Numbered from the stretch's first letter, positions 18,650 to 33,988 are shown. The stretch is 64,000 nt of DNA from an uncultured Nitrospira sp. (GCA_902500805.1 CABVSA010000006.1:1-64000); one strand, 5' to 3'. Notes: generated from the sequence alone by a model not told the origin. Program-made: numbers and translations.

Positions 18650-19666
18650 CTATCGCGAAGTAGGCGACAACGTCAATTTTGCCGTCCGCACAAATCCAGA
18701 AGCCGTACTAAAGGTATCTTCAACTGCTGACGCCTCATAGCCGCAATGGACCATACAATCAGCGCACTTTTCGTTTCGGCCGGTCCCATACTTCTCCCAC
18801 TCCGTCAACTCCATCAACTCCTGAAAAGTTTTGGTATACCCTTCCTGGAGTAAATAGCAGGGTTTCTGCCATCCAAAGACGTTGTAGGTTGGATTCCCCC
18901 AGGGTGTGCATTGATATTCGCGGCGCCCCATCAAGAAGTCCAAGAACAGAGGAGATTGATTAAAGTGCCATCCCGGTTTGGGACGGGCCAGAATTTTAGA
19001 AAACAGCTCCTGGGTTCGTGACCGCTTCAAGAAATGCTGCTGATCCGGAGCCTTTTGATAACTATACCCTGGTGATATCGTCATTCCCTCGACACCAAGG
19101 GCCATCATGTCATCGAAAAACGTTCTGACTCGTTCTGGGTTGGCATCATCAAACAACGTCGTATTGGTCGTGACTCGGTGCCCACGTTTGACTGCCGCCT
19201 TGATCGCCTTCACGGCTACGTCATAGACCCCATCACGACAGACGGCCAAATCGTGCTCGTCCTTGAGTCCATCCATATGGATGCTAAAGGTCAAATATTT
19301 AGAAGGCGTAAACTCATCAAGCTTTCGTTCCAAGAGGATGGCATTCGTACAGAGATAAATGTACTTCCTCCGCTCTACCAAGCCTTGGACGATTTTCGTG
19401 ATTTCAGGATGAATGAGCGGCTCCCCTCCTGGAATACTCACCATCGGAGCTCCACATTCTTCTGCGGCAGCCCAACACTGCTCAGGAGTCAACCGTTTAT
19501 CAAGAACATGATCGGGATACTGAATCTTCCCGCATCCCGCACAGGCAAGATTGCAGCGAAAGAGTGGTTCCAGCATAAGAACTAAGGGATATCGCTTCAC
19601 TCCCTTGAACTTCTGGGAGAGGACATACGTCGCCACAGTACACATCTGGGAAATCGGAACAGCCAT
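18650..19666 (-). CDS. hpnH: hopanoid C35 side-chain radical SAM enzyme HpnH
   Basis: A 338-residue radical SAM protein. The cluster motif CNLACAGC lies near residue 38, followed by GGEPLIHPEI, and a C-terminal cysteine set (CADCMVHCGYE) is typical of the HpnH family. HpnH adds 5'-deoxyadenosine to diploptene to form adenosylhopane, the first step of extended hopanoid synthesis. The ATG is preceded by AAGGAG at good spacing. Squalene-hopene cyclase and HpnG lie about 24 kb away in the same window, completing the early pathway. An inverted repeat at 19717-19741 lies just upstream and may be an operator. Confidence 0.93.
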   Translation of the reverse strand: MAVPISQMCTVATYVLSQKFKGVKRYPLVLMLEPLFRCNLACAGCGKIQYPDHVLDKRLTPEQCWAAAEECGAPMVSIPGGEPLIHPEITKIVQGLVERRKYIYLCTNAILLERKLDEFTPSKYLTFSIHMDGLKDEHDLAVCRDGVYDVAVKAIKAAVKRGHRVTTNTTLFDDANPERVRTFFDDMMALGVEGMTISPGYSYQKAPDQQHFLKRSRTQELFSKILARPKPGWHFNQSPLFLDFLMGRREYQCTPWGNPTYNVFGWQKPCYLLQEGYTKTFQELMELTEWEKYGTGRNEKCADCMVHCGYEASAVEDTFSTASGFVRTAKLTLSPTSR

Positions 19667-19741: not shown

Positions 19742-20102
19742 TTGGAGGCACAAGAATGTTCGGGATTGTAGCATCTCACCTAAGCCCCGTCAATTTCCTG
19801 AAGCTCCTCATGCGACTCGCCTACGCTAAGACAAGTCCGAATGGATACCGTGTATGTGCGTAGAGCGCCGCGATTGAGAATACACTCTACACCCGCTACA
19901 ACCTCCCTGTTCAAATCCGTCGCTGGGAAACACATTTCTAACCGGTGGTTCTCCCCCCTCAGGGCTGATTTCAAGAATCTGTCCCGCCAACACGACGATG
20001 GAAACACCTCATCTCCACCGCTGTTCAACTACATAGGATGGATGCAACGAATCCCAAATCCAACCAGCCAATTGCCTATTCGCCACGACCGATAAGCTCA
20101 GA

Positions 20103-20132
20103 CCCATGCACAGACTGAACGCTGTGCATGGG
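20103..20132. promoter_or_regulatory. inverted repeat upstream of the peptide cassette
   Basis: Perfect 11-bp arms, CCCATGCACAG and CTGTGCATGGG, around an 8-base loop. No T-run follows, so it is either a non-classical terminator or a protein-binding site. It lies about 350 bases before the first cassette gene. Confidence 0.4.
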
Positions 20133-20480
20133 CGACCATGACCGTGAATCTCCGGACTCCATCCATTCAGAACACATCAAAAACAGAACGCTGTCTGCAG
20201 ATGAATCTAATTCGATTCACAACGTTATCTGTTCGGATACATATCTATTCGAGACATCAAATCACTTCCATTCTGTTCGCTCACGATGCAGAACTGAATC
20301 GTTCAATCTTTCCAATGTTTATATCAGTATTAATCCAATCGACAGCTGCTGGCACGCAACGTGATAGACGGAGAGGCAGATGCGATTGTGAGAAAGATAT
20401 CAAACAAAAAACATGGGGCTCGGCGAGGAGCCATTACCGTGTTGCACATAGATGCCGCATAAAGAGCGAGGTAACCCACG

Positions 20481-22385
20481 ATGAATCGATCAACGCACGA
20501 TCAAATGAGTCTTGTAGAAGAGTCCACACCGCCTGCAGTTGACGGGTGCCCCGCGAGTGGGATGCCGTTAACGGAAGACACGACGCTTCTTTTTCTTCAG
20601 CACCGACGCCTGTTCGTCGAGTATTCGACGGCCGCGTCCGGCGAGCGGGAACTCCATCTGTACTATGGCGACAAGGAAATATCTTTCGATGATCCGGAAC
20701 TCTTTGCCTTCGGCGAGGGGCTCGCCAAACATGAGCAATTTCAGGCCAGGGAGGCGATAGCTTGGGGAACCGGATATGAGTGGACGCGTGTGCAACCGCT
20801 ACTGGAGCAATTGATTGAGGAGGGATTTCTTATCCCGGCAGATTCCAGTGCATCACGCACAGACTCCCGTCCACGCGGCACCTGCCCGTCACCTCTTTCT
20901 CCAGCAAAGAACCAGGCCGCGCGCAGCTGGTTCGACAGCGAGGCGATTTTTCGTGAGCTGACCGGTCATTCACTCGAAGTCGGGTACTTGGAGGCGGTGA
21001 TTCCAGTCTCTCACGTGGCACACATGGCCCTGGATACCGAGGGACGGCAAATGGGAGAAGCGAACGTGTTTCCGCCGCAGTTGCGCGTGGAGATCCCGAC
21101 GGAGTGGCGTACCTGTCCTCATGCCGGCACCCGGTATTTAGATGAGAAGCCGATGAACGCCACGGCGCTCAAGAGTATGCGCCACCATTGGCCACAGATC
21201 ATCGCGGTGCTCCTCCATGTGCGCGAGGCATTTCTCCACCGTTTTCCAAAAGTCCGGCAGGGCTGGACCGTGGGGGACTTACTACGGCTGGCGACGGTCG
21301 TTATGGCGATTCCCGGATACCTCGTCATGCGCACAAGAGATCGTGTCGGGAACGGCCAGGTACACCCCGTCCTTTCGGGTATGGTCCGCGTCACTGATGG
21401 CATCAGGATGACCACGTCGGAGATGCTGTATACCTCAGAAAGTTACGAACCCAACCGCGCGCCTGATGCGCCGCTTACCGGAGCCGACATCTACACCTAC
21501 GCCGAGCGCAACTATCTGCTCCATTCAATGCATGGAGTATGTGCAGGTCCTCAAGCCATGATTAATGAATTCTTGAGCGTGCTGGTCGATGGGCACTCGC
21601 CCAAGAGTGGTGCGGCCGTCGTCCTGGAGCCGGCACTCCAGAGCGTGTTCAACGAACTGGATGAGGCGTTTGATTATGGCCTCTACGGCCTCCAATCCTA
21701 CGCCATCGTGTACTCGCTCTGGCCCGCGATGCGCCGCAGTTATGAACGGCTCATCACGCTCGTTACTGCCTGGCCGGACGAGCGATCCGACGTACTGAAC
21801 GCATTCACGGAACGCCTACTGGAAAGCGCGCAGTACCTGGAATCCCTCACCCGTATGACCGTGTCTCAGTACAGCGCTACGCTCGGTCGAGTATATGCAG
21901 ACATGTATGAGCACGCAACGAGCGGACTCGGCTGTCACTCCCCGGGATCCACCTATACCGAATGCATGACCCCTACGTGTGCTCCACAGCATACGGATGC
22001 GGCCAGGCAACTCCGGGCCTTATTGAGCCAACGCACCAGCGACCACGCGAATGCTGACACCGGGGCCTTGGACGGCCTTGTGGCCTGCGTTATGGACTAT
22101 TGCCGGCAAGAACAGGCAGTCGTTCAAGCGGTCAATGAGAGCCAACAGAGCATCAATCGACTGCTGGAGCGCTCGACACCCAAGCAACCACTGACGGCGG
22201 CAGATCTGCATCTCTTTCAGAAACTGCGCGGAGGCAGTCAGCGTCAGCCCTATTTACCAGATGACATCGAGGACATGCTGGGGATCCACATCTCAGTTAC
22301 TCAGAACGAGATCCTGATTCTTGATCGATCGACAGGCGAGCCGACTGCTGGACAGTCGGGACAACTACCCGGGAGCCGGCAATAG
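20481..22385 (+). CDS. large protein of unknown family, first gene of the peptide cassette
   Basis: A 634-residue soluble protein without signal peptide or membrane helix. Residues about 30-115 look like a winged-helix domain: a beta-rich start (RRLFVEYST, ELHLYYGDKEISF) and a closing helix (VQPLLEQLIEEGFLIPAD) that matches the VxxFLxxLxxxGLL pattern of PqqD/RRE peptide-binding domains. The remainder is mostly helical; it has His/Glu-rich segments and cysteines near residues 490-505 (CHSPGSTYTECMTPTC), but no motif I recognise. Its stop lies 55 bases before the first small peptide gene. I infer a precursor-binding or modifying role; that is a guess from position and the RRE-like fold. The start follows GAGGT. 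Confidence 0.75.
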   Translation: MNRSTHDQMSLVEESTPPAVDGCPASGMPLTEDTTLLFLQHRRLFVEYSTAASGERELHLYYGDKEISFDDPELFAFGEGLAKHEQFQAREAIAWGTGYEWTRVQPLLEQLIEEGFLIPADSSASRTDSRPRGTCPSPLSPAKNQAARSWFDSEAIFRELTGHSLEVGYLEAVIPVSHVAHMALDTEGRQMGEANVFPPQLRVEIPTEWRTCPHAGTRYLDEKPMNATALKSMRHHWPQIIAVLLHVREAFLHRFPKVRQGWTVGDLLRLATVVMAIPGYLVMRTRDRVGNGQVHPVLSGMVRVTDGIRMTTSEMLYTSESYEPNRAPDAPLTGADIYTYAERNYLLHSMHGVCAGPQAMINEFLSVLVDGHSPKSGAAVVLEPALQSVFNELDEAFDYGLYGLQSYAIVYSLWPAMRRSYERLITLVTAWPDERSDVLNAFTERLLESAQYLESLTRMTVSQYSATLGRVYADMYEHATSGLGCHSPGSTYTECMTPTCAPQHTDAARQLRALLSQRTSDHANADTGALDGLVACVMDYCRQEQAVVQAVNESQQSINRLLERSTPKQPLTAADLHLFQKLRGGSQRQPYLPDDIEDMLGIHISVTQNEILILDRSTGEPTAGQSGQLPGSRQ

Positions 22386-22389
22386 GGCC

Positions 22390-22468
22390 GGCAGATCTAC
22401 GTGCGATGGGCACGGAACGAGCGAGCAAAGGAGTACACCATGAAGGTGAAATCCAATGTGCGTGCAGG
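22390..22468 (+). repeat. 79-bp direct repeat, copy 1
   Basis: Matches 22863-22941 at 74 of 79 positions. The unit spans the leader region, the ribosome binding site AAAGGAG and the first nine to ten codons of the small peptide gene; sequence identity stops inside the peptide gene. This points to duplication of a precursor gene with its translation signal. Confidence 0.95.
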
Positions 22469-22562
22469 GCTGGTAGCGACGGCGGTGCGAGGCACCTGCC
22501 GTAGTCTGACCACGCCCGTGCTGCCAAAGTTCGGCTGCCGAGTTCTCTATGCCGCCTACTAA
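22440..22562 (+). CDS. putative modified-peptide precursor 1 (40 residues)
   Basis: A very short gene with an excellent ribosome binding site (AAAGGAG, 6 bases before ATG). It starts MKVKSNVRAG, the same as the second small gene apart from S/T at position 5. The C-terminal half contains two Cys-Arg units, RGTCRSLTTP and GCRVLYAAY, and ends in tyrosine. It lies between a possible RRE protein and genes for a C39-peptidase exporter, so it is most simply read as a RiPP precursor with a short leader and a Cys/Arg/Tyr core. No known precursor family recognised. A 14-bp hairpin follows the stop. Confidence 0.7.
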   Translation: MKVKSNVRAGLVATAVRGTCRSLTTPVLPKFGCRVLYAAY

Positions 22563-22575
22563 GAGGTAGGAGTGG

Positions 22576-22608
22576 AGTAGAGGGGAGGATGCTGTCCTCC
22601 CCTCTACT
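22576..22608 (+). terminator. hairpin after peptide gene 1
   Basis: Perfect 14-bp stem (22576-22589 with 22595-22608) with loop TGCTG, starting 14 bases after the stop of peptide gene 1. The core GGGGAGG/CCTCCCC recurs after peptide gene 2. No T-run follows, so it may act as an attenuator or mRNA stabiliser, letting the precursor be made in excess of downstream genes. Confidence 0.7.
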
Positions 22609-22701
22609 AACCGCCTCACGGCTTGCGGTATCGCACAGGTGAGAAATATCGATCCTGTGTTGTTCCGAACGCAGCACCTACGACTCAGAAAAAAGAGCCG
22701 A

Positions 22702-22977
22702 ATGAACACGATCCTTTTGGGCCATGACTGGGCAACGGTCTGCGTCGACGAGTGTAGGGCACGCGCGGCCCTTGCCATCCAGGACGCCCTGCAACCAGCT
22801 CTACGAAGCGTGAGCGCCCCGACCGGAGATCAATGGGATCCCCTCCTCGCCAGTATGACGCTGGCAGATCTACGTGCGATGGGCACGGAACAAGCGAGCA
22901 AAGGAGCACATCATGAAGGTGAAAACCAATGTGCGCGCAGGAGCGAGAGGCGGCTGTCGTTCCATCGTGTTGGCTAA
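22702..22977 (+). CDS. possible small protein overlapping peptide gene 2
   Basis: A 91-residue frame beginning MNTILLGHDW, with an amphipathic helical part (ECRARAALAIQDALQPALRS) and a weak AAAGAG ribosome binding site. Its last ~22 codons overlap peptide gene 2 in another frame. The 79-bp repeat also carries part of this frame (ADLRAMGTE) upstream of peptide gene 1, where it has no full-length counterpart. It may be a real leader-like or immunity protein, or only an open frame. No family recognised. Confidence 0.35.
   Translation: MNTILLGHDWATVCVDECRARAALAIQDALQPALRSVSAPTGDQWDPLLASMTLADLRAMGTEQASKGAHHEGENQCARRSERRLSFHRVG
22863..22941 (+). repeat. 79-bp direct repeat, copy 2
   Basis: Second copy of the unit at 22390-22468, with five substitutions and no gaps. 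It places ribosome binding site and start codon of peptide gene 2 exactly as in copy 1. Two of the five changes fall in the coding part: one gives S to T, the other is silent. Confidence 0.95.
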
Positions 22978-22984
22978 CTACTAA
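22913..22984 (+). CDS. putative modified-peptide precursor 2 (23 residues)
   Basis: Twenty-three codons with ribosome binding site AAAGGAG. It begins MKVKTNVRAG like peptide 1, then ARGG directly before CRSIVLANY. A Gly-Gly just ahead of a Cys is the kind of site cut by C39 peptidases, and such a peptidase domain is encoded 4 kb downstream. The end shares Cys-Arg, a hydrophobic run and terminal Ala-x-Tyr with peptide 1. I read it as a second precursor whose core could be as short as nine residues. A hairpin follows 10 bases after the stop. Confidence 0.68.
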   Translation: MKVKTNVRAGARGGCRSIVLANY

Positions 22985-22994
22985 GCCTGTGAGT

Positions 22995-23019
22995 GAGGGG
23001 AGGCCGATAGCCTCCCCTC
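22995..23019 (+). terminator. hairpin after peptide gene 2
   Basis: Perfect 10-bp stem GAGGGGAGGC/GCCTCCCCTC with loop CGATA. The stem core is the same as in the hairpin after peptide gene 1, although the surrounding sequence differs. No T-run follows. Confidence 0.7.
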
Positions 23020-23155
23020 CTCGACAATCAAGGTACACGCGTCAGAAGTGACGGTACTGCAAGCCCGGCTGATGCACTCATCGGACTGGCGACCACAATC
23101 ACTAGGTAAGGGCGCAAATTCTCCGCTCCAGCAAGAGAGCCTTAAAGGAGGGCAT

Positions 23156-25504
23156 ATGAAAGGGACAAAGCGTGCACAGCCGGCAACTGTTCGACTGAAT
23201 TTAGGGCTGCTATCGGGGGCCCTCGCGTTAGTGTTTGGAGCAGCCATTCTGCCCACCAACTTTCTTTTCGCTCAATCGAATATCGAGGTCCGCGAGCAGG
23301 AAGACGACGGCCAGACTATAGAAGCAGAAACACAACGCCATGGAGGGCACCGACAGTCCCGCCATCAGCATGCTGGCCACATCCTGCATCCTGGCGATGC
23401 GCGTGCCCTGGGCTTGGAGTCTTTACGGCGCGCTATTCAAACCGATGGCGGCGTCCCCTTACCCTCAAACCTTGACGAATATGTCGCCGATCGACGAGCA
23501 GCCATTCAACTGGGCAAGGCGCTGTTCTGGGACATGCAGCTTGGCAGCGACGGGGTGCAGGCCTGTGCCAGTTGTCACTTCCATGCAGGGGCCGATGATC
23601 GCTCGAAAAATACTCTCAATCCTCGTGAAGGCATACTGGACGAACAACAAGGGCCGATCAAGGGATACTTCTTCGCTGGAGCCAATCCCGATCGACACTT
23701 CGAAACCACGCAGCCGAATGGGACACTCACGCGCGCAGACTTTCCACTCATCAAAAATATCCAAGATGTGAATCGAACCGCCGATGGAAATGTGGTGCCC
23801 AGCTATGGAAACAGCAACGACATTGTCGGGTCTATGGGTACATTCTTCACCCAGTTTGACGGTACCCAGCCCGGCAAGCGTCTCGATTTGGGAACACCCC
23901 AACCGGACCCGACGTTCAATCTTGGCGGTCACACGAACGTGCGACAAGTGGGGCACTTCAACGCACCGACGGTGATTAACGCAGTCTTCAATTTCACCAA
24001 CAACTGGAACGGCACGGCCAGTCCCCATTTCAATGGGCGGGATGTGTTCGGCGACGGGAACCCCGCCGCCATGATCTTTATCAATCAACCAGGCATGGGA
24101 TTAGTTCTCGAGCACATTTCGTTGGCCAATGCCAGCTTAGCGTCACAGGCCATGAACCCACCGAACAATCCACGAGAGATGGCCTTCGGAGACCCATCGA
24201 CCGGCAATGCCCGACGGTTTTCTCAGATTGGGATCAAGCTGCTTCGTCCGTCGCCAGAAGCAGGAACACCCTTGACTCCCTTGGGTCTCCAACAGGTCCA
24301 TCCGCAGGACTCGGTGCTCGGCCCACTGGCGCAGGGGCGATTGCGAGGATTGGCAACGACCTATGAAGCCATGATCAAGAAGGCCTTCGTTGCGAAGTAC
24401 TGGAACTCAACGGTTTCATTGCCTACACCGATCGGCGATCTGACCCATCTGGAGGCCAACTTTGGTTTCTTCTTTGGTCTTGCTGTGGGGTTGTACGAGA
24501 CCACGCTGGTCGCTGACGAAACACCATTCGACCGCTGGATGGAAACCGGATCTTTCCAGGAAGGCTTCGGCAAGTCGGAACTTGCCGGATTGAATCTCTT
24601 CGTTGGAGAGGGGCGCTGCATCCAGTGTCACGCCGGTCCTGAGTTGACAACGGCCTCCGTACGCAATGCCAAAGGGGGCGAGGAGGTCATTGGCGCCAAG
24701 GCCATGAAAAGGGGCGTCGCCTTATATGATAAGGGGTTTTTTAATATTGGAGTCACGCCGACCACCGACGAACTCGGCCGAGGGGACCTGGGTGTGCCGC
24801 CCGATGCTCCCGTCGCCTTTTCCCGACAGGCCCTGTTTACACGACTCGCAGATCGGCTCCCCGGAGTAAGTCCCATTCCCTTTCCTATTCTGGGGAACGA
24901 TCGCATTCCTGCCCGGGATGAAGATTTTGGGCTACCCGTCTGCCGCGATAAGAACGGCAATGGATTTTGCGATCCTGATGAACCTCTCCGACGTCGGTTT
25001 CACCGCGTCGCCGTGGATGGAGCCTTCAAGACTCCTGGATTGCGCAATGTCGAGCTGACAGGCCCCTACTTCCATAACGGCGGTATGGCCACCTTGCGGC
25101 AAGTCGTAGAATTCTATGACCGCGGAGGGAACTTCTGCAGCTTCAATTTCGATGATATCGATCCCGCCATCGCTCCAATCGGACTACGAGAACGCGAAGA
25201 AGCCCAGCTTGTTGACTTTCTGATATCCCTTACCGACCGACGCGTGAAGTATGAGCAGGCTCCATTTGATCATCCTGAAATTCGACTCCCGCAGGATGGT
25301 CGAGACACGGATGGAACCCGTGTGCTTCCTGCGGTCGGCGCGCAAGGAGCCCCGACTCCATTGACGACGTTTTTACAGCTAGACCCTCACGACGCCGTCT
25401 TTACACCACAAGGGCAGTGCTATGCCACTGATCTCGCAAAGAGACCGACTGCACAGAATGGATCTTCTCTGCGCCCAGGCCATTATCCACGTTCTAAAGA
25501 ATAG
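23156..25504 (+). CDS. large MauG / cytochrome c peroxidase-family dihaem protein
   Basis: A 782-residue exported protein: a signal peptide (residues 1 to about 40, ending LFAQS) after the ribosome binding site AAAGGAGG. Two haem c motifs, CASCH near residue 137 and CIQCH near residue 488, and the late signature FKTPGLRNVELTGPYFHNGG place it in the MauG/bacterial cytochrome c peroxidase superfamily. It is about twice the usual length, with a long insertion between the two haem domains and a C-terminal extension. Relatives oxidise peroxide or modify tryptophan in partner proteins (MauG, MbnH). Because it lies between precursor and export genes, it may oxidise the exported peptide; a simple peroxidase role is the alternative. 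Confidence 0.85.
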   Translation: MKGTKRAQPATVRLNLGLLSGALALVFGAAILPTNFLFAQSNIEVREQEDDGQTIEAETQRHGGHRQSRHQHAGHILHPGDARALGLESLRRAIQTDGGVPLPSNLDEYVADRRAAIQLGKALFWDMQLGSDGVQACASCHFHAGADDRSKNTLNPREGILDEQQGPIKGYFFAGANPDRHFETTQPNGTLTRADFPLIKNIQDVNRTADGNVVPSYGNSNDIVGSMGTFFTQFDGTQPGKRLDLGTPQPDPTFNLGGHTNVRQVGHFNAPTVINAVFNFTNNWNGTASPHFNGRDVFGDGNPAAMIFINQPGMGLVLEHISLANASLASQAMNPPNNPREMAFGDPSTGNARRFSQIGIKLLRPSPEAGTPLTPLGLQQVHPQDSVLGPLAQGRLRGLATTYEAMIKKAFVAKYWNSTVSLPTPIGDLTHLEANFGFFFGLAVGLYETTLVADETPFDRWMETGSFQEGFGKSELAGLNLFVGEGRCIQCHAGPELTTASVRNAKGGEEVIGAKAMKRGVALYDKGFFNIGVTPTTDELGRGDLGVPPDAPVAFSRQALFTRLADRLPGVSPIPFPILGNDRIPARDEDFGLPVCRDKNGNGFCDPDEPLRRRFHRVAVDGAFKTPGLRNVELTGPYFHNGGMATLRQVVEFYDRGGNFCSFNFDDIDPAIAPIGLREREEAQLVDFLISLTDRRVKYEQAPFDHPEIRLPQDGRDTDGTRVLPAVGAQGAPTPLTTFLQLDPHDAVFTPQGQCYATDLAKRPTAQNGSSLRPGHYPRSKE

Positions 25505-25554
25505 TGCCGGTGTGACACGGCAGCACTCCATCTTCGACAGAGAGTACGACTATC

Positions 25555-26745
25555 ATGGCGACGCCATTTTCACGCACGGTTCGCTCGTTGGCCCATGACA
25601 CATCACAGTTTGCACTGTTCATCTGGGGGCTCGTGGCACTGCTGTTTGGTGCCTGGTTCAGCTGGTTTACGTTGGTGCATGTCACGCTGTACGAAGTTTC
25701 GCAAAGCAGTCGGGTGGAAGTAGAACAGGCTGCGCATACGGTCACCACCTCTCTCGCGGGGAAGGTGGTGGCCACATCCATGAAACTCGGCAAGTCCGTT
25801 GAAGCTGGCGAGAGCTTGATGGAGCTGGATGCACGGATCGAACGTCTCCGCTTGCAAGAAGAAGAGGCGCGGCTCGCGGCGATCCCGCCGCAATTAGCAG
25901 CACTCACACGACAACTGGAGGATGGTGCCCACGCTGTGGAGCGGGAGCAGGTAGCTACGATAAGTAGCCTGCAGCATGCCCAGGCACGCCATCACGAAGC
26001 CCTGGCAGCCGCATCGTTCGCCAACGACCATGCGCAGCGGATGGCGCAGCTGCTGAGGGCCCAGATGATTCCGGAGGTGGATTTCCTTCGCGCAAAAGTG
26101 GACGCGGAGAAAACGCAGGCGTCGGCCGAGGCCTTCTCGCACGAAATCACACGGTTAACAGCCGAGGCCTCCGGTAAACGCCATGATAAGCACGCCACCT
26201 TGGAAGCCTTGCGGCGCGAGGTCGCCGCGCTCGGGGGCCAGCGTGAGCTCTCCCTTGCCACGATTGCCCGACTCAATCAGGACATTGAAAAGCATGTGAT
26301 TCGCGCACCGGTTTCAGGAGTGCTGGGAGAAGTTGCGGCTCTCCATCCTGGCGCCTTTGTTGAGACGGGAGGCGTGGTCGGCAGTATCATTCCTCAAGGT
26401 AATCTAAGAATCGTGGCGGAGTTTTCGCCTGCGCGAGTGCTCGGACGCATGCATCCTGGCCAAATGGCACGTGTGCGCCTCGACGGCTATTCGTGGGTCC
26501 AATACGGCAGTCTTGCGGCCACCGTCACACGCGTGGCCAGCGAGATTCGCGCGGGAAAGGTCCGTGTTGAACTCGCGCCCACAACCCAGACACCCCTTGC
26601 CCTTCCGCTTCAACACGGCTTGCCAGGGACGGTTGAAGTTGAAGTCGACCACATCACCCCATTGACGCTAACCCTGCGCACAGTGGGGCAACTCCTGACT
26701 AACCCTGCGCAACCATCCCACCTCAGAGCGGAATCTTCCCCATGA
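25555..26745 (+). CDS. HlyD-family membrane fusion protein
   Basis: A 396-residue periplasmic adaptor: one N-terminal membrane helix (about 22-45), a lipoyl/biotinyl-like half (VEQAAHTVTTSLAGKVVA, GKSVEAGESLMELDA), a long alpha-helical hairpin (about 90-240), the second lipoyl half (VIRAPVSGVLGEVAALHPGA) and a beta-barrel domain. Such proteins bridge an inner-membrane exporter and a TolC-like channel. Its stop overlaps the start of the C39-ABC gene (ATGA at 26742), so the two are coupled. It corresponds in position to the HlyD component of NHLM-type peptide export. Confidence 0.93.
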   Translation: MATPFSRTVRSLAHDTSQFALFIWGLVALLFGAWFSWFTLVHVTLYEVSQSSRVEVEQAAHTVTTSLAGKVVATSMKLGKSVEAGESLMELDARIERLRLQEEEARLAAIPPQLAALTRQLEDGAHAVEREQVATISSLQHAQARHHEALAAASFANDHAQRMAQLLRAQMIPEVDFLRAKVDAEKTQASAEAFSHEITRLTAEASGKRHDKHATLEALRREVAALGGQRELSLATIARLNQDIEKHVIRAPVSGVLGEVAALHPGAFVETGGVVGSIIPQGNLRIVAEFSPARVLGRMHPGQMARVRLDGYSWVQYGSLAATVTRVASEIRAGKVRVELAPTTQTPLALPLQHGLPGTVEVEVDHITPLTLTLRTVGQLLTNPAQPSHLRAESSP

Positions 26746-29549
26746 TGCGACCAATGGGTGCCATCCAAACACGTCGGTGGTGGGTGCCTGAGCTTGTACA
26801 GACATCGGCGATGGACTGCGGACCCGCCGCGCTGACCTGCTTGCTGGAAGGGTTCTATATCCCAGCCAGCTACGGCCGTCTTCGCGAAGCCTGTCAAACC
26901 ACTGTGGATGGGACATCGATTGATGTCATGGAGGATGTCGCGCGACAGCTTGGGTTAGATGCTGAACAGGTCATGTTGCCGCCGAATGACCTCTGGATTC
27001 CCGAGGCAAAGGCCCTACCTGCCTTAGTCGTTGTCCAGCAGGCCAGCGGACTCTTGCATTTTGTCATCGTGTGGCGGCGAGTTGGACGCTGGCTCCAACT
27101 GATGGATCCAGGGGTTGGCCGTCGGTGGGTGAACCAGGACCAATTCACACGCGAGCTTCATCTTCATAGTCTGCCGGTCGAGACCACCGAGTGGTACACC
27201 TGGGCCACGTCCAATGAAGCCGTTGACATCCTTCTTGCCCGATTGCGTCGCCTCGGTGGATCGGAGGTGGATGCAACTCGGCTGGTTCGACAGGCCACGG
27301 ATGAGGGAACTTGGCAAGCCATGGCTGGGCTGGACGCAGCAGTACGAATGGTTGAACGACTCACATCCGCTAAGAGCCTGCCGAAAGGAAAGCAGGCGAT
27401 ACGGCTCCTCGAGAGCCTTAGCCCACAAACTCTCGCACAACCGGTCAACTCCTGTCTTGCCATTCCAGCTCACTATTGGGCGGTAACCCAGGCCAATATC
27501 CAAGGTGATGTCAGTAGACTCATCCTGCGCGGCGCGGTTCTCCTCCGCATCCGGGGGCGATCGTCAGAAGCCGGCCCCTCAACAACCAAAACGATACCCG
27601 GGGCAGAGCTCGCGCCGGAACTCGCTGCGGCCTTGCGTGAGAAGCCGGTGCACCCAGTACGAAAACTCCTAGACCTTATGCGCAGCGAGGGTGCCCTCAC
27701 CCCGCTCGCCCTCCTGGGCGCGATCGGTCTCGGCGTGGGAGCCGTGCTAATCGAATCGATCTTATTTCGAGGTCTCTTTGAGCTCGCGACGGTGTTTGCC
27801 GTCGCCAGTCAGCGTCTGTTTGCGCTCGGGGCGCTTGTTTCGTTTCTTCTGTTGCTCTGGGCCTGCGAACTGCCCATTCTCAGTGAATCCTTGCGGTTGG
27901 GACGGCATCTTGAAACTCGCTTACGAGTCGCCCTACTTCAGAAGCTTCCCACACTCCATGATCGGTATTTGCATAGTCGTCCGATCTCCGACATGGCCGA
28001 TCGAAGCCATAGTCTGGCATTGGTGCGCGGCCTGCCCGCATTGGCTGTCCACATCGTCCAATCTTGCTGGGAAATAGTATTTACATTGGTGGGAATCGGG
28101 CTCATTGCTCCACACAGCCTCCCGCTTGCCGTACTACTCGTCGGGCTGTCGCTCGGACTTGCCCTCCTAGCACAGCGGCCAATGCGTGAAGGCGACCTAC
28201 GATTGCGCGGTCACGCGGCAGCCTTGTACGGATTCTCCTTGGATGTACTGCGTGGAAATGCACCGATCCAGATACATGCTGCCGAGCGCGCGATTCGCCG
28301 AGAGCATGAAGGTTTGTTGGCTGAGTGGGTGCGTGCCTCTCGGCGACTGCTGAACCTTTCACTCATCGTGCACAGCAGCCTCTCACTCATCGCCACCGGG
28401 CTGATCGGAGTGCTGATCTTGCATCACTTACAGACGGTTGGGATGACAGGGAGCCTCCTGCTACTGGTCTATTGGGCCATCAAGTTGCCAGCGTTAGGGA
28501 AAGGGTTGGCAACGATGGCCCTACAATATCCAGCTCACCACAACATCGTCATGAGGTTGCTCGAGCCGCTCAATGCACCGAGCGAAACGGCCACGGCATC
28601 CCAACGGGATCCCACCGATTCATCTGAGAGTCGCACGAAACAGAACGACCTTGTCCCAAAGATCCGACCTCTCTCAGGCGTGGCCATCGAGTTTCGTGAC
28701 ATCACGGTGGTTGCGGCAGGACATACCATCTTGCACGACCTCACGCTGCATATTCAGCCGGGAGAGCATGTGGCGATTGTGGGACCATCAGGCTCGGGAA
28801 AGTCCAGCGCGCTGGGACTGTTACTCGGGTGGCACCGTGCCGCTACCGGTACGGTCTTGGTTGACCGAGAGCCCCTCACCGCGGTTCGACTGTGCACATT
28901 GCGTCGTGCAACGGCCTGGGTCGATCCATCAATTCAGCTCTGGAATCGAACACTGCTGGAGAATATATCCTACAGTCACACGACTGGACACCTGTCTGAA
29001 TTGGGCGACTTGCTGGAACGAACCGATCTCACGAACGTCATCGCGCATCTGCCGAACGGGCTCCAAAGTTCATTAGGTGAAGGAGGTGCGCACCTCTCAG
29101 GGGGTGAAGGCCAGCGAATTCGCCTCGCCCGTGCCATGTGGCAGAGCGCCGTTCGCCTGGTATTGCTAGATGAACCATTTCGTGGCCTCGATCGTGAGCG
29201 CCGCCATCGGCATCTTGACCAAGCACGCGCCTCATGGAAAGACGCTACCTTACTCTGTGTCACTCATGATGTAGCTGAGACTCAAACATTCGACCGAGTC
29301 TTGGTGATGGAGAATGGAGGCATCGTTGAAGATGGTGCACCCGAACATCTCGCAGCTACGCCGACCTCTCGATATCGCACCCTTCTGGATGCCGAGATGA
29401 CAGCCCGCCATGCCTTGTGGTCTGGAGCACAATGGCGTCATCTCCGATTGGATCGTGGACAAATACAGGAATCACCGCCCCCCAGTGAAACCTCCTCCAC
29501 CTGGAGTAGCGCCCCCACCACTGTCTGGAGGGCTGGCAGCCATGCATGA
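26742..29549 (+). CDS. C39 peptidase-containing ABC exporter (NHLM-like)
   Basis: A 935-residue bacteriocin-type exporter. The N-terminal C39 domain has all expected residues: Gln20, Cys26 in TSAMDCGPAAL, His106 in LLHFVIVW and Asp122 in LMDPG. A ~170-residue linker precedes the six-helix transmembrane domain (about 320-600) and an ATPase domain with Walker A GPSGSGKSS, signature LSGGEGQ, Walker B LVLLDEP and the histidine of VTHD. It should cut the leader from a peptide and export the core. The start overlaps the HlyD gene; the stop overlaps the next ABC gene by 8 bases. Confidence 0.95.
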   Translation: MMRPMGAIQTRRWWVPELVQTSAMDCGPAALTCLLEGFYIPASYGRLREACQTTVDGTSIDVMEDVARQLGLDAEQVMLPPNDLWIPEAKALPALVVVQQASGLLHFVIVWRRVGRWLQLMDPGVGRRWVNQDQFTRELHLHSLPVETTEWYTWATSNEAVDILLARLRRLGGSEVDATRLVRQATDEGTWQAMAGLDAAVRMVERLTSAKSLPKGKQAIRLLESLSPQTLAQPVNSCLAIPAHYWAVTQANIQGDVSRLILRGAVLLRIRGRSSEAGPSTTKTIPGAELAPELAAALREKPVHPVRKLLDLMRSEGALTPLALLGAIGLGVGAVLIESILFRGLFELATVFAVASQRLFALGALVSFLLLLWACELPILSESLRLGRHLETRLRVALLQKLPTLHDRYLHSRPISDMADRSHSLALVRGLPALAVHIVQSCWEIVFTLVGIGLIAPHSLPLAVLLVGLSLGLALLAQRPMREGDLRLRGHAAALYGFSLDVLRGNAPIQIHAAERAIRREHEGLLAEWVRASRRLLNLSLIVHSSLSLIATGLIGVLILHHLQTVGMTGSLLLLVYWAIKLPALGKGLATMALQYPAHHNIVMRLLEPLNAPSETATASQRDPTDSSESRTKQNDLVPKIRPLSGVAIEFRDITVVAAGHTILHDLTLHIQPGEHVAIVGPSGSGKSSALGLLLGWHRAATGTVLVDREPLTAVRLCTLRRATAWVDPSIQLWNRTLLENISYSHTTGHLSELGDLLERTDLTNVIAHLPNGLQSSLGEGGAHLSGGEGQRIRLARAMWQSAVRLVLLDEPFRGLDRERRHRHLDQARASWKDATLLCVTHDVAETQTFDRVLVMENGGIVEDGAPEHLAATPTSRYRTLLDAEMTARHALWSGAQWRHLRLDRGQIQESPPPSETSSTWSSAPTTVWRAGSHA

Positions 29550-31683
29550 TGCGATCGCCACAATCGCGTGGCCTACCGCACGGTTACCGGAAGCCATCGA
29601 AGTCTTGGCACGACGCGCGGGGTTGCGCCCCAATACGACCGGGACAACGCTGCCTCCATGTCTGCCCAACCTGGCAGATCGCAGAGAGTTCGAACCCTGG
29701 TTGGAGTGGTTCTGCACACGTATCGACATTGAAATGGAATCCGTCGAGTCAACCGTCTCCGACTACACAAACCTGCTCCGAGGCGCCGGTCCAGCAGTAC
29801 TGCACTATCAACATGTTGGTGAATCGTCTGTCCTATTGCTCTTGAGGGCCACGACTCGACACGTACAGTTCATCGGCCCCGATCTGCGAGTGAGACGATA
29901 TCCGCTGAGTCATATTCGTGCTGCCCTCTGCGACGAAGTGGAACGGCCCGTGAGGGCTGCGGTGGAAGCGCTGCTCCCACACGCAAACATCCCCGTCAAG
30001 AACCGAGCTGACGTCATTCAACTCCTTGTGCAGGAGCAGGTGGCTGGCAAGCGCATGGACGCATGCTGGACGCTCCGTATGCCTCCGACGCGATCGTTTT
30101 GGTTACAGATGCAATGGCAGCGTATGCCAGGCCGCGCGGCAGCCATGTTGACGGTCTTCATCGGGTTGTATGTGACTGAGATTCTAGGCTGGATGGTGAT
30201 CGGCCGAGGAGCATTGGAGGGACGCCTCGATGACGGTTGGCTCGTCGCCTGGGTGCTGCTGTTACTGCTCCTCATCCCCATACAACTGGTGGGCACCTGG
30301 CTGCAGGGCCTGTTTGCGATCGACTTCGGAACATTGTTGAAGCAGCGACTGCTGTCGGGTGCGTTGCACATGAAGATCGACGAGGTCCGTCGAACCGGCA
30401 TCGGTCAGTTAGTGGGGAAGGTGATGGAATCTCAGGCATTGGAGTCGCTGGCGTTCAATGGCGGATTCTCGGTTATGGTTGCCTCGATTGAATTGATTGT
30501 GGCGGCCTGGGTGCTCATCTGGGGAGCCGGTGGATCCTGGCATGTCCTGACTCTCCTCCTGTGGGTGCTCGGCACGCTGACCGCCTGCTGGTGGTATTTT
30601 CGACACCTGCGTCAATGGGTTCACGCAAGGATTGATCTCACACATGAGTTGATTGAGCAGATGGTGGGCCATCGCACTCGGTTAGCCCAGGAGGCTTTGG
30701 AACAGCGACACCTACGCGAAGATCGCTGTCTCGAACGATTCCTCCAAGTGTCAGCTGACTTTGACAGGACTCTGGTTCCATTGTCGTGGGGGATCTCGCG
30801 TGGATGGTTGATTGTCGGCGTGTTGGGACTTGTCCCTGCCCTGACCTGGGGGCAAGTGGACCTGATGGGCCTCGCCGTGAGTTTAGGAGGCGTGTCGTTG
30901 GCACAGCGGGCATTCGGGGAAATTGGCTCAAGCCTGGCTTCACTGGCACGTGCTGCGGTAGCCTGGGAACTCATACAACCGTTATTTGTGGCTGCCCACC
31001 GCTCGAAGACCGAGTGCCTCACCTCACCCAGTGCGCATCGCCCACTGGAGAATCAGGACCTCTATAAAGCCAAACACGTCTGCGTCCAGGCTCGTGATGT
31101 TGTGTATCACTATGAACGGACAGGTGATCCCGTACTCAATCGATGCACGTTTACTCTCTACCATGGTGATCACGTCTTGCTGGAAGGCCAATCAGGCAGT
31201 GGTAAATCGACGCTGACAGCATTGCTCGTGGGATTACGTCAGCCAGACTCCGGCCTGTTGATGCTCAACGGACTGGATCGAGCTACCTTGGGGCAAAGAT
31301 GGCAGCAGTTGAGTACGGCGGCATCGCAATTCCATGAAAATCATGTATTCACCGGCACAGTAGCCTTCAATCTGCTCATGGGCTGCCATTGGCCACCAAC
31401 CGCCGCCGACCTGGCTGAGGCTAAGCAACTGTGTGAAGAGCTCGGCCTGGGTGACCTTCTCAACCGTATGCCGTCGGGAATGATGCAGATGGTGGGCGAG
31501 ACAGGATGGCAGCTCTCTCATGGTGAGCGGAGTCGCTTGTTCCTTGCCCGCACATTACTTCAAAAAGCCGAACTTGTGGTCTTGGACGAAAGCTTCGCCG
31601 CGCTGGATCCCGAGACCTTAACCAAATGTCTTCAATGCGTCCGGACGAGAGCACATACCTTAGTGGTCATCGCACATCCATGA
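29542..31683 (+). CDS. second ABC exporter without peptidase (NHLM-like)
   Basis: A 713-residue ABC transporter. The first ~190 residues are not an active C39 domain: I see no Cys/His/Asp triad, although a beta-rich part (AVLHYQHVGESSVLLLLRA) recalls a degenerate one. Transmembrane segments lie at about 210-480 and the ATPase domain has Walker A EGQSGSGKST, signature LSHGERSR and Walker B LVVLDES. The protein stops right after the H-loop (VVIAHP), lacking the usual last 30-40 residues. It pairs with the preceding exporter, as in NHLM clusters where two ABC genes follow each other. ATG 29542 follows GGAGGG. Confidence 0.9.
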   Translation: MHDAIATIAWPTARLPEAIEVLARRAGLRPNTTGTTLPPCLPNLADRREFEPWLEWFCTRIDIEMESVESTVSDYTNLLRGAGPAVLHYQHVGESSVLLLLRATTRHVQFIGPDLRVRRYPLSHIRAALCDEVERPVRAAVEALLPHANIPVKNRADVIQLLVQEQVAGKRMDACWTLRMPPTRSFWLQMQWQRMPGRAAAMLTVFIGLYVTEILGWMVIGRGALEGRLDDGWLVAWVLLLLLLIPIQLVGTWLQGLFAIDFGTLLKQRLLSGALHMKIDEVRRTGIGQLVGKVMESQALESLAFNGGFSVMVASIELIVAAWVLIWGAGGSWHVLTLLLWVLGTLTACWWYFRHLRQWVHARIDLTHELIEQMVGHRTRLAQEALEQRHLREDRCLERFLQVSADFDRTLVPLSWGISRGWLIVGVLGLVPALTWGQVDLMGLAVSLGGVSLAQRAFGEIGSSLASLARAAVAWELIQPLFVAAHRSKTECLTSPSAHRPLENQDLYKAKHVCVQARDVVYHYERTGDPVLNRCTFTLYHGDHVLLEGQSGSGKSTLTALLVGLRQPDSGLLMLNGLDRATLGQRWQQLSTAASQFHENHVFTGTVAFNLLMGCHWPPTAADLAEAKQLCEELGLGDLLNRMPSGMMQMVGETGWQLSHGERSRLFLARTLLQKAELVVLDESFAALDPETLTKCLQCVRTRAHTLVVIAHP

Positions 31684-33647
31684 TACCCCCCACGACCAAG
31701 ATTCAAACCTCAGCGTATCTCTCACCTCTGTCGGATGGACAGGGCCGGTCGTGCCCGGCAACCCACTACTGGGGCGACGTGTGCACAAGCAGCCCTCAGC
31801 ACCACGCGATCATCACGTTTGGCGATCACGTGCCTGCACTCTCCCGAATATCAGCAATCTCTGGGGGTCTGCTGACAAAATCCGCCAGCGAGGTTCTCGC
31901 GCAGCTCAGAGGTTCAACGTATGGGAAAGTGCACGATTCGCCTGTTCGTGCGTTGCTGGCTTGCTGGAGGGCCCTTCTGAACAGCCTGTACAGCATCCAG
32001 ATTTTGGCAATCACCGTACGCACCGATTTTGATCTGCGGCGGCGCAGGGTTTGTCAACACATTGCTCGTAGTTCAAACAGTACTACAGGTGGCAGACCTT
32101 GGGTTCACTGCAGACGCGCAACCATTTTGATCACCGGGCTATGGGGAGTTCTCTCCCCCTCCTACAGTTGGAGTCTGGATGTCGCTCACTCAACTCCCCT
32201 CGAACGTCAAGAAACAATTTCATTAGCGGATGCAGCAGTTCAGGCGCTCCAGAACAATCTCGATATCAGCATCAGCCGTCACATTAAAACGAACCGACTG
32301 TCAGATATTGACATCGAGCACGCAAAATTCGACCCCACAGTGAGTATGAGCGGACGATATAATAGGACAGTTGATCCGCTCAATCGTCCTGTCTTCGGAG
32401 CCACCGGTGTCCAGCTTGACCAGATCACTACGTTCGACCAGCGTAATCATTCACTGACCCTTGATGCCTCGACAAACCTCATCACCGGTGGCAATTTCGA
32501 TGTGAGCTATAGTCCAACAAGAAACAGTGTGAATCAGGATCTTGCAACAGGCTTTCTGTTCAATCCTGCCTGGACCGGCGGCCTCGCCGTCAACTTGACC
32601 CAGCCGTTACTCAGAAACGCCGGGATCTCAGTCAACACCACCTTCATTAAAGTGGCCAAAAATAATGCGGTTGTCGAGCAGCATGTATTTCGCGACCAAG
32701 TCTTGACCGTGCTCGCCTCAGTCGAGGCAAATTATTGGGAGCTTGTGTTTGCGAGGGAACAGCTGAAGGTCGCCCAAGCGGCACTCAAGGCCGCCGAGGA
32801 ACTATTGGCGGCCAACCGTGTCAAAACCAAAGCGGGTGTGATGTCGGTCGTCGATGTGCTTCAAGCCGAAGCTGCCGTCGCATCCAGAGTGGAGCAAATC
32901 TTGGTGGCTGACAAAGCCATTCGAGATGAGGAAGATCAACTCCGGACTCTCCTGAATCCAGGCGAAGCTGAGCTCAGGCAGACAGTACGCCTTACTCCCC
33001 TCGATGCTCCGATTACCTATCTTGAGATCCCCAGCCCCGAAGACGCCATCGATACAGCATTGGAACAGCGTCCGGAAATCTTTCAAGCCAAGAAGCATGT
33101 TGAATCCAGCGAGTTGAATAAACAATTTGCGCGTAACCAGTTACTTCCTACACTTTCGCTTCAAGGCACAATCGGCGTGTCCGGATTAGGGAGTGACTAC
33201 GGCAGCGCGTTCACCAGAAACTTCGGTGGTGACTTTTATAACTATGGGGTGGGAGTGGTGCTCAGCTATCCGCTCGGCAACCGCTCTGCCATCAGTACGT
33301 ACAACAAGCGGCAATTGGAGACCAGGAATGCCGAGATATCCCTTGCGCGAGCGCGTCATCAAATCATTCTCGGTGTGCGCGAGGCGGTCCGCCGTGTGCA
33401 GACCGATTTCACGCGTATCGAGACCACGCGTTCAGCGCGGGCATTAGCCGAGAAGCAACTGCAAACAGAGCAAGAACGATTAAAGGCAGGACTCAGCACC
33501 ACTCGCTTTGTACTCGACTTCCAACGTGATCTTGCGATCGCGCAGGGGAACGAATTGCGAGCCATTATTGATTACAATAAGGCACGCTCGAACCTCTCCC
33601 GTCATATGGCTACCACCTTGGACCTTTATCACCTCGAACTATCCTAG
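31680..33647 (+). CDS. TolC-family outer membrane efflux protein
   Basis: The C-terminal ~480 residues are a clear TolC-type protein: two repeats with coiled-coil helices (AALKAAEELLAANRVKTKAG, LQAEAAVASRVEQIL; later ALAEKQLQTEQERLKAGLST) and the NYWELVFA and ISLADAAVQALQNN signatures. The first ~150 residues from ATG 31680 do not look like TolC or a signal peptide. A hydrophobic run (ILITGLWGVLSPSYSWS) near 32130 is the better signal peptide, so the real start may be a non-ATG codon close to 32120. It forms the outer-membrane exit for the HlyD/ABC system. The ATG at 31680 overlaps the ABC stop. Confidence 0.88.
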   Translation: MIPPTTKIQTSAYLSPLSDGQGRSCPATHYWGDVCTSSPQHHAIITFGDHVPALSRISAISGGLLTKSASEVLAQLRGSTYGKVHDSPVRALLACWRALLNSLYSIQILAITVRTDFDLRRRRVCQHIARSSNSTTGGRPWVHCRRATILITGLWGVLSPSYSWSLDVAHSTPLERQETISLADAAVQALQNNLDISISRHIKTNRLSDIDIEHAKFDPTVSMSGRYNRTVDPLNRPVFGATGVQLDQITTFDQRNHSLTLDASTNLITGGNFDVSYSPTRNSVNQDLATGFLFNPAWTGGLAVNLTQPLLRNAGISVNTTFIKVAKNNAVVEQHVFRDQVLTVLASVEANYWELVFAREQLKVAQAALKAAEELLAANRVKTKAGVMSVVDVLQAEAAVASRVEQILVADKAIRDEEDQLRTLLNPGEAELRQTVRLTPLDAPITYLEIPSPEDAIDTALEQRPEIFQAKKHVESSELNKQFARNQLLPTLSLQGTIGVSGLGSDYGSAFTRNFGGDFYNYGVGVVLSYPLGNRSAISTYNKRQLETRNAEISLARARHQIILGVREAVRRVQTDFTRIETTRSARALAEKQLQTEQERLKAGLSTTRFVLDFQRDLAIAQGNELRAIIDYNKARSNLSRHMATTLDLYHLELS

Positions 33648-33913
33648 TCGTCTATCCCCGACTCGCTCACGCACATGTAGAATCTAAGGGAAGCCGACGG
33701 AGTGTTCTCACCGATGCTTGTCACGAGAACCCAAGGGGGTCAGCTTTCCCCATACGAAGAAGGAAACAAGCGAGGAAGTATGATCCCGTTGCCAACAATT
33801 GCGCCTCTCGTCGTTACGTTGAACAAGCAATCGGACCACTTGAGAGTTTGGGGGGGCTGACAGTTCTTACGATAAGATGGCTATGGAACCCAAACTGCAC
33901 GTGAAGTGCGGTT
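33648..33913. other. intergenic stretch after tolC
   Basis: About 270 bases between the TolC gene and tRNA-Cys. Apart from a 26-codon frame at 33780-33860, nothing is seen. Confidence 0.45.
33780..33860 (+). CDS. possible 26-residue small ORF
   Basis: A 26-residue frame starting MIPLPTIAPL and ending RVWGG, with GAGG four bases before ATG. It lies at the end of the peptide cassette. It has no similarity to the two MKVK peptides. It may be chance. Confidence 0.2.
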   Translation: MIPLPTIAPLVVTLNKQSDHLRVWGG

Positions 33914-33988
33914 TGGAGGCGCCGAGCGGGTTCGAACCGCTGCATCGCAGTTTTGCAGACTGCTCCCTTACCACTTGGGTACGGCGCC
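33914..33988 (-). tRNA. tRNA-Cys (anticodon GCA)
   Basis: A 75-base cloverleaf on the minus strand: acceptor GGCGCCG/CGGCGCC, D-arm with CCCAAGTGGTAAGG, anticodon stem GCAGT/ACTGC around CTGCAAA (anticodon GCA, cysteine), T-arm with GGTTCGAACC, and an encoded CCA at 33914-33916. Confidence 0.97.

Follow-up and report, generated by a model that had tools for sequence, protein, structure and literature searches.

A candidate ribosomal peptide cassette in Nitrospira pairs tiny precursor genes with an RRE-like fusion protein and a MauG-like dihaem protein

Classes of ribosomally synthesized and post-translationally modified peptides (RiPPs) are defined by their maturases, and a survey of RiPP recognition elements (RREs) found many of them fused to uncharacterized domains (PMC12710340). 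MauG-like dihaem enzymes have precedents for pairing with a modified protein partner, namely MbnH/MbnP and SACCP/MopE (PMC3621798). Nitrospira, key nitrite oxidizers of wastewater treatment, are known to hold several RiPP clusters in their genomes, and the functions of their secondary metabolites are unknown (PMC9765116). Here we describe a cassette from an uncultured Nitrospira sp. that combines tiny precursor-like genes, a large protein that we call E634, a MauG-like dihaem protein and a set of export genes. It lies in a 64,000-nt stretch of DNA (GCA_902500805.1 CABVSA010000006.1:1-64000; G000:C6 in genome G000), hereafter the window, whose positions serve as coordinates throughout. In the open full-text literature, we found no paper on this system and none linking MauG and RiPPs except in methanobactin mining.

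We consider it reasonably probable that this is a RiPP-type cassette, in which E634 would bind the leader of the precursors and modify their core, an exporter with a C39 peptidase and an ATP-binding cassette (C39-ABC) would cleave and export them, and MauG-like oxidation would come afterwards. The genes named in a first-pass annotation of the window were all found there on the plus strand: E634, precursors A and B, the MauG-like gene, an HlyD-type adaptor, C39-ABC, a second ABC exporter (ABC2) and a TolC-type protein (Table 1).

Precursor genes recur beside E634

First, the small genes have counterparts elsewhere, MKVKSNVRAGVLATTVRGTCRSLTTVLAPKIGTCRTLYAAF in genome G036 and MKVKSKVRAGRPNYCSPIGLPKLPGGGPVYAF in G011, giving four precursors of 23–41 residues from three genomes. 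All share a 10-residue leader, MKVK[ST][NK]VRAG, and every core contains at least one Cys and ends in an aromatic residue (Tyr or Phe). Our searches covered 79 genomes of the genus, 175 of the family and 396 of the phylum. With at most two mismatches allowed, the degenerate leader pattern occurs at four places in 3 of the 79 genus genomes, all in cassettes adjacent to E634, whereas the reversed pattern, as a control, has zero matches in the same 79, which indicates that the small open reading frames (ORFs) are not chance frames.

Second, leader and core differ in how they vary. In the leader codons, the proportion of non-synonymous differences (pN) is 0.04 against 0.29–0.56 for synonymous differences (pS), and the ten-codon leaders of paralogues or distant copies show 2–4 synonymous differences and one non-synonymous. 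The core tolerates more change, with pN 0.19 versus pS 0.29 in the G000/G036 pair (on small numbers). A conserved leader with a variable core, here in four precursors from three genomes, is what a RiPP precursor gene would be expected to show, small as the numbers are. Because strict conservation ends at VRAG and variability begins beyond it, the alignment suggests C39 cleavage after the invariant AG.

Third, the small genes travel with the cassette. The first-pass annotation had held that a failure to recur with it in any relative would count against the system; they lie beside E634 in both G036 and G011, so that leader and E634 stand side by side in two genomic contexts whose gene orders differ. 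G036 carries the island at the same locus as the window, and a contig scan for the cassette returned only KAN-bin2 (Nitrospira sp.), at the same locus as G036. In G011, the order is MauG-E634-precursor-HlyD-ABC1-ABC2, at a different locus and with no adjacent TolC. E634 is present in 5 of the 79 genus genomes: G000, G036, G011, G040, where it is cut by a contig end, and G017, where it is a remnant; nothing convincing was found in the family or phylum genomes. Orthologues of the MauG-like protein with at least 58% identity occur only in the four of these genomes that have E634 beyond a remnant, and ABC2 occurs in those four and in G030 (at a contig edge). The chance of identical sets of four is 7e-7, uncorrected for shared ancestry. 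In G040, the genes are split between two contig ends, one with MauG and E634 and the other with ABC1/ABC2. In G017 (L010:9487-9917), codons 45–98 of E634 are joined to codons 668–756 of ABC2, with the same downstream flank as in G011; this junction is a deletion scar and shows loss of the cassette. The presence of the cassette across genomes is thus patchy, and the cassette is dispensable.

Among candidates set aside, ORF 22702-22974, which overlaps precursor B, was rejected as a gene, since its only matches elsewhere are to the repeated element described below. A supposed likeness of the leader to 'VKTNIKAGG...NHNQ' peptides found no match in plasmids or 296 Nitrospirota genomes, in short searches that are insensitive; against plasmids, the sole match to precursor A was at E=10.

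E634 joins an RRE-like domain to a helical domain

AlphaFold modelling of E634 residues ~31–125 from four sequences (pLDDT 77, pTM 0.65) predicts a winged helix with the order beta-beta-beta-beta-alpha-beta-alpha-alpha-beta. Its top Foldseek matches include TruD, LynD, the PbtF RRE, ThcOx, TigE, MccB and McbB, besides ribosomal oxygenase (ROX) enzymes. Structurally, it comes closest to the C-terminal winged helices of ROX proteins (VIA Z 9.5, for MINA53); the leader-binding domains of ThcOx, McbB, TigE, TbiB1, MccB, PbtF, LynD, TruD and PqqD score 5.7–7.2, with some unrelated winged helices similar. From its fold and context together, the domain is likely to be an RRE, which would bind the leader.

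The remaining ~500 residues found no Pfam match. The single distant relative that we found, a 470-aa protein of Burkholderia arboris, has 25% identity over 204 aa in the C-terminal region of E634; it belongs to a family without a Pfam entry and has no RRE-like part. Its gene (L018:14872-16284) sits between a Cupin_8 hydroxylase gene and non-ribosomal peptide synthetase (NRPS) genes. In this stretch of plasmid pla_2 (L018:12458-16284), a gene for an MBL-fold protein also adjoins it. Invariant positions of the E634 family include D185, R189, E193, E208, C212, R218, H236 and a VCAGP motif with C354. E634 may thus be a tailoring enzyme of natural-product biosynthesis that gained a ribosomal peptide as its substrate through fusion to a leader-binding domain. 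The first-pass annotation had seen in E634 just a possible RRE protein and had assigned the maturation to the MauG-like protein. The N-terminal fold bears this out, but the description is incomplete: because the RRE-like domain is fused to ~500 further residues, whose only other relative found is an NRPS-cluster protein, E634 is likelier than the MauG-like protein to be the primary maturase.

Other readings of this domain were discarded. A similarity to anthranilate synthase component II (NCBIfam, 21.8 versus 265 bits; GVCAGPQ resembling the GATase motif) appears in one of five members and was judged chance, and sequence support was not found for P450 and IDO/TDO-type readings.

A proposed pathway and its alternatives

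In the pathway that we favour, the tiny precursors would be translated first, E634 would bind their leader through its winged-helix domain and its helical domain would modify the core in the cytosol. C39-ABC, with ABC2 and HlyD, would then cut, probably behind the invariant AG, and export the core freed of its leader. A further oxidation by the dihaem enzyme would follow at the cell surface or in the periplasm. C39-ABC scores well above threshold (PF03412, 67.3 versus 22; ABC_tran, 80 versus 25), its active site, reported intact in the first pass, is so (Gln20, Cys26, His106 and Asp122, kept in four genomes) and both ABC exporters have intact ABC motif sets. The most likely product is a secreted peptide with bioactivity or metal binding, which may be a bacteriocin, a metallophore or a signal. 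More tentatively, we put forward the possibility of a new RiPP class, in which an enzyme of unknown fold with a fused RRE would place a new modification on Cys/Tyr cores and a periplasmic MauG-type enzyme would add an oxidative step, such as a Tyr/Cys crosslink or hydroxylation.

Several observations weigh against this pathway. Intact precursor-bearing genomes number only three, all of one genus. The RRE-like Foldseek matches have E values of 0.02–0.5, and winged helices from outside RiPP biosynthesis (ROX, PKMT, GdmN) match equally well or better. AlphaFold models of whole E634 from four sequences are useless beyond residue 125 (mostly pLDDT 22–40). Finally, paralogues of the MauG-like protein (43–48% identity) are common in Nitrospira without such cassettes, and export by a type-I-like HlyD/TolC route would skip the periplasm, the compartment in which the MauG-like protein must sit.

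The last two points also favour a different view, in which E634 is the only enzyme to modify the peptide and the MauG-like protein is a hitch-hiker or has a separate redox role. Oxidation by MauG is indeed the weakest step of the mechanism, because HlyD and TolC usually form a direct conduit; in the G011-type cassette, which has no adjacent TolC, release into the periplasm is conceivable. The close orthologue is restricted to genomes with E634, however, and lies near E634 in both gene orders. Its sequence also has MauG-like features. The protein scores 68.4 against the CCP_MauG model (PF03150; gathering score 25.6), carries haem motifs CASCH at 137 and CIQCH at 488, and has an N-terminus that resembles a signal peptide on inspection. 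Tyr654 aligns with a Met of 1iqc, which we take to be an axial haem ligand, and this Tyr, kept in four proteins, places the protein with MauG-type oxidases rather than cytochrome c peroxidases. The first-pass annotation was therefore right to call it a MauG-like dihaem protein, and it may act on the peptide; we regard the hitch-hiker view as unlikely, although it is the alternative to be taken most seriously. The protein falls short of the specific families: the best NCBIfam models are TIGR04039 (MbnH; 100 against a cut-off of 363) and the MauG equivalog TIGR03791 (77.7 against 443.85).

MauG-like dihaem genes occur in other settings as well. Two more stand at one locus of G000 (L068, G000:C1:194773-201213), with similar pairs in several Nitrospira that have no cassette, and others in G025, G038 and G056 (L064, L065, L066) lie near twin-arginine-signal-like or repeat-rich proteins.

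Alternatively, the exported peptides might be unmodified, class-II-bacteriocin-like or signal peptides, with E634 as an immunity protein, regulator or chaperone. The export genes alone would allow this, since a C39-ABC/HlyD/TolC set suffices for unmodified peptides of the double-glycine type. Moreover, Pfam and NCBIfam bear out that no known RiPP maturase (LanB, LanC, LanM, YcaO or radical SAM) is among the cassette proteins. Against this stand the MKVK leader, far shorter than usual double-glycine leaders, the RRE-like domain of E634 with its conserved, catalytic-looking partner related to an NRPS-cluster protein, and the co-conservation of a MauG-like oxidase; we find this alternative improbable.

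Each precursor is part of a larger repeated unit. A 27-nt element, CAGATCTACGTGCGATGGGCACGGAAC, lies upstream of each precursor and is identical in G011, although E634 there is only 48% identical; it is confined to the same four places as the leader pattern, with a chance expectation of 0 in the window. A Shine-Dalgarno sequence, AAAGGAG, precedes each small gene, and a strong hairpin follows shortly 3′ of every precursor stop (z −3.0 to −4.7), differing in sequence among copies. The hairpins lack a T-run and are therefore not canonical terminators; they could plausibly act as partial attenuators or as mRNA-end stabilizers that raise precursor dosage. Because both units of the window contain an 82-nt direct repeat (22387-22468 and 22860-22941, 93% identical) spanning the element, the Shine-Dalgarno sequence and the leader codons, precursor B is probably a duplicate whose core then changed. 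In a further alternative, the MKVK ORFs encode no product, and the conserved units that separate E634 from the export genes act as regulatory RNAs or attenuator leader ORFs. This would suit the nucleotide-level conservation of the element, the recurring hairpins and the tiny ORFs, but is very improbable given that leader codons diverge synonymously with their amino acids held, that cores keep Cys and a terminal Tyr/Phe while length and sequence change, that the unit is duplicated in the window with a different core and that Rfam has no match at the precursor units.

The cassette occupies a genomic island

The real unit is an island of ~14.1 kb between hpnH and tRNA-Cys. Empty sites of four relatives without the cassette (G006, G018, G023 and G015), with the order hpnH, tRNA-Cys, GT87 gene, ispG, align to the window up to a break at 19797-19799 and resume at 33903-33911; HpnH of G006 is 99% identical to that of the window. 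The upstream flank, hpnH (18650-19666, minus strand), is a hopanoid radical SAM gene outside the island. No integrase is evident within the island. As the downstream genes overlap or stand close together, they may be read as one operon. The homology of the TolC-type protein begins at residue ~160, so its true start is probably downstream of 31626. The stretch TTCGGATACATAT, or its first 11–13 bases, also precedes the first gene in G011 and G040, with a variant in G036, and is possibly a common promoter or operator. A stretch of this type upstream of MauG in L008 and L009 is common to both cassette arrangements.

Table 1. Features of the cassette and its island, in window coordinates
Feature	Position	Strand	Remarks
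Whole island	19800..33910	.	hpnH/tRNA-Cys site empty in four Nitrospira without the cassette
Candidate promoter or operator, TTCGGATACATAT	20232..20244	+	weak evidence
E634, 634 aa, proposed leader-binding maturase	20481..22385	+	RRE-like N-terminal domain and mostly helical domain
27-nt conserved element, 5′ of precursor A	22392..22418	+	G011 copy identical; G036 copy with one mismatch
Precursor A, 40 aa, MKVKSNVRAGLVATAVRGTCRSLTTPVLPKFGCRVLYAAY	22440..22562	+	orthologue in G036
Hairpin after precursor A	22576..22608	+	14-bp perfect stem, no T-run, z −4.1
27-nt element, second copy, 5′ of precursor B	22865..22891	+	within 82-nt direct repeat
Precursor B, 23 aa, MKVKTNVRAGARGGCRSIVLANY	22913..22984	+	leader-pattern match
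Hairpin after precursor B	22995..23019	+	z −4.7
MauG-like dihaem protein, 782 aa	23156..25504 (ORF open from 23048)	+	PF03150, two CxxCH
HlyD-type adaptor	25555..26745	+	
C39 peptidase-ABC exporter	26742..29549	+	active-site Gln/Cys/His/Asp
Second ABC exporter (ABC2)	29542..31683	+	likely start 29542, not 29410; overlaps C39-ABC stop
TolC-type outer-membrane protein ORF	31626..33647	+	
tRNA-Cys, island boundary	33914..33988	−	

Comparison with known systems

Judged by its sequences, the cassette fits no described modified-peptide class that we found. If the proposed pathway is true, the action of a MauG-type enzyme on a short peptide after export would be a type of step new to the open literature that we searched, and the cassette would yield a testable secreted product for Nitrospira. 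The tiny precursor is a defined substrate for testing E634, which joins a domain resembling those of leader recognition to an enzyme family without a Pfam entry.

NHLM (NHLP) export resembles the cassette in combining HlyD with two serial ABC exporters, one of them a C39-ABC. The first-pass annotation had called the export side NHLM-like, which holds for layout only: the three proteins score far below the cut-offs (TIGR03796, 191.5 versus 853; TIGR03797, 102.6 versus 709, for ABC2; TIGR03794, 21.3 versus 156), and the leader is not of NHLP or Nif11 type. The TolC of that annotation is present in the window but missing from the G011-type cassette.

The His-Xaa-Ser system (TIGR03981) also combines the maturation of a small protein with a neighbouring MauG-like protein, but the cassette scores 46 against a cut-off of 340 and has neither radical SAM enzymes nor an HXS repeat peptide. 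With MauG and MbnH, the cassette protein shares a pair of CxxCH motifs, a Tyr where the Met ligand usually stands and its best NCBIfam models; it differs in its large insertions and below-cut-off scores, and the cassette has no methylamine dehydrogenase or methanobactin genes (no MNIO (DUF692) MbnB, MbnC or Mbn precursor family among its proteins). The B. arboris protein has the D/R/E/C/H and VCAGP positions in common with E634, in a non-ribosomal setting with no RRE-like domain and no precursor peptide. Finally, the RRE-fused maturases (TruD/LynD, ThcOx, McbB, MccB and TigE) have catalytic domains that the rest of E634 does not match, but share with it the plan of an N-terminal winged helix of ~90 residues on a larger enzyme, with short precursor genes adjoining.

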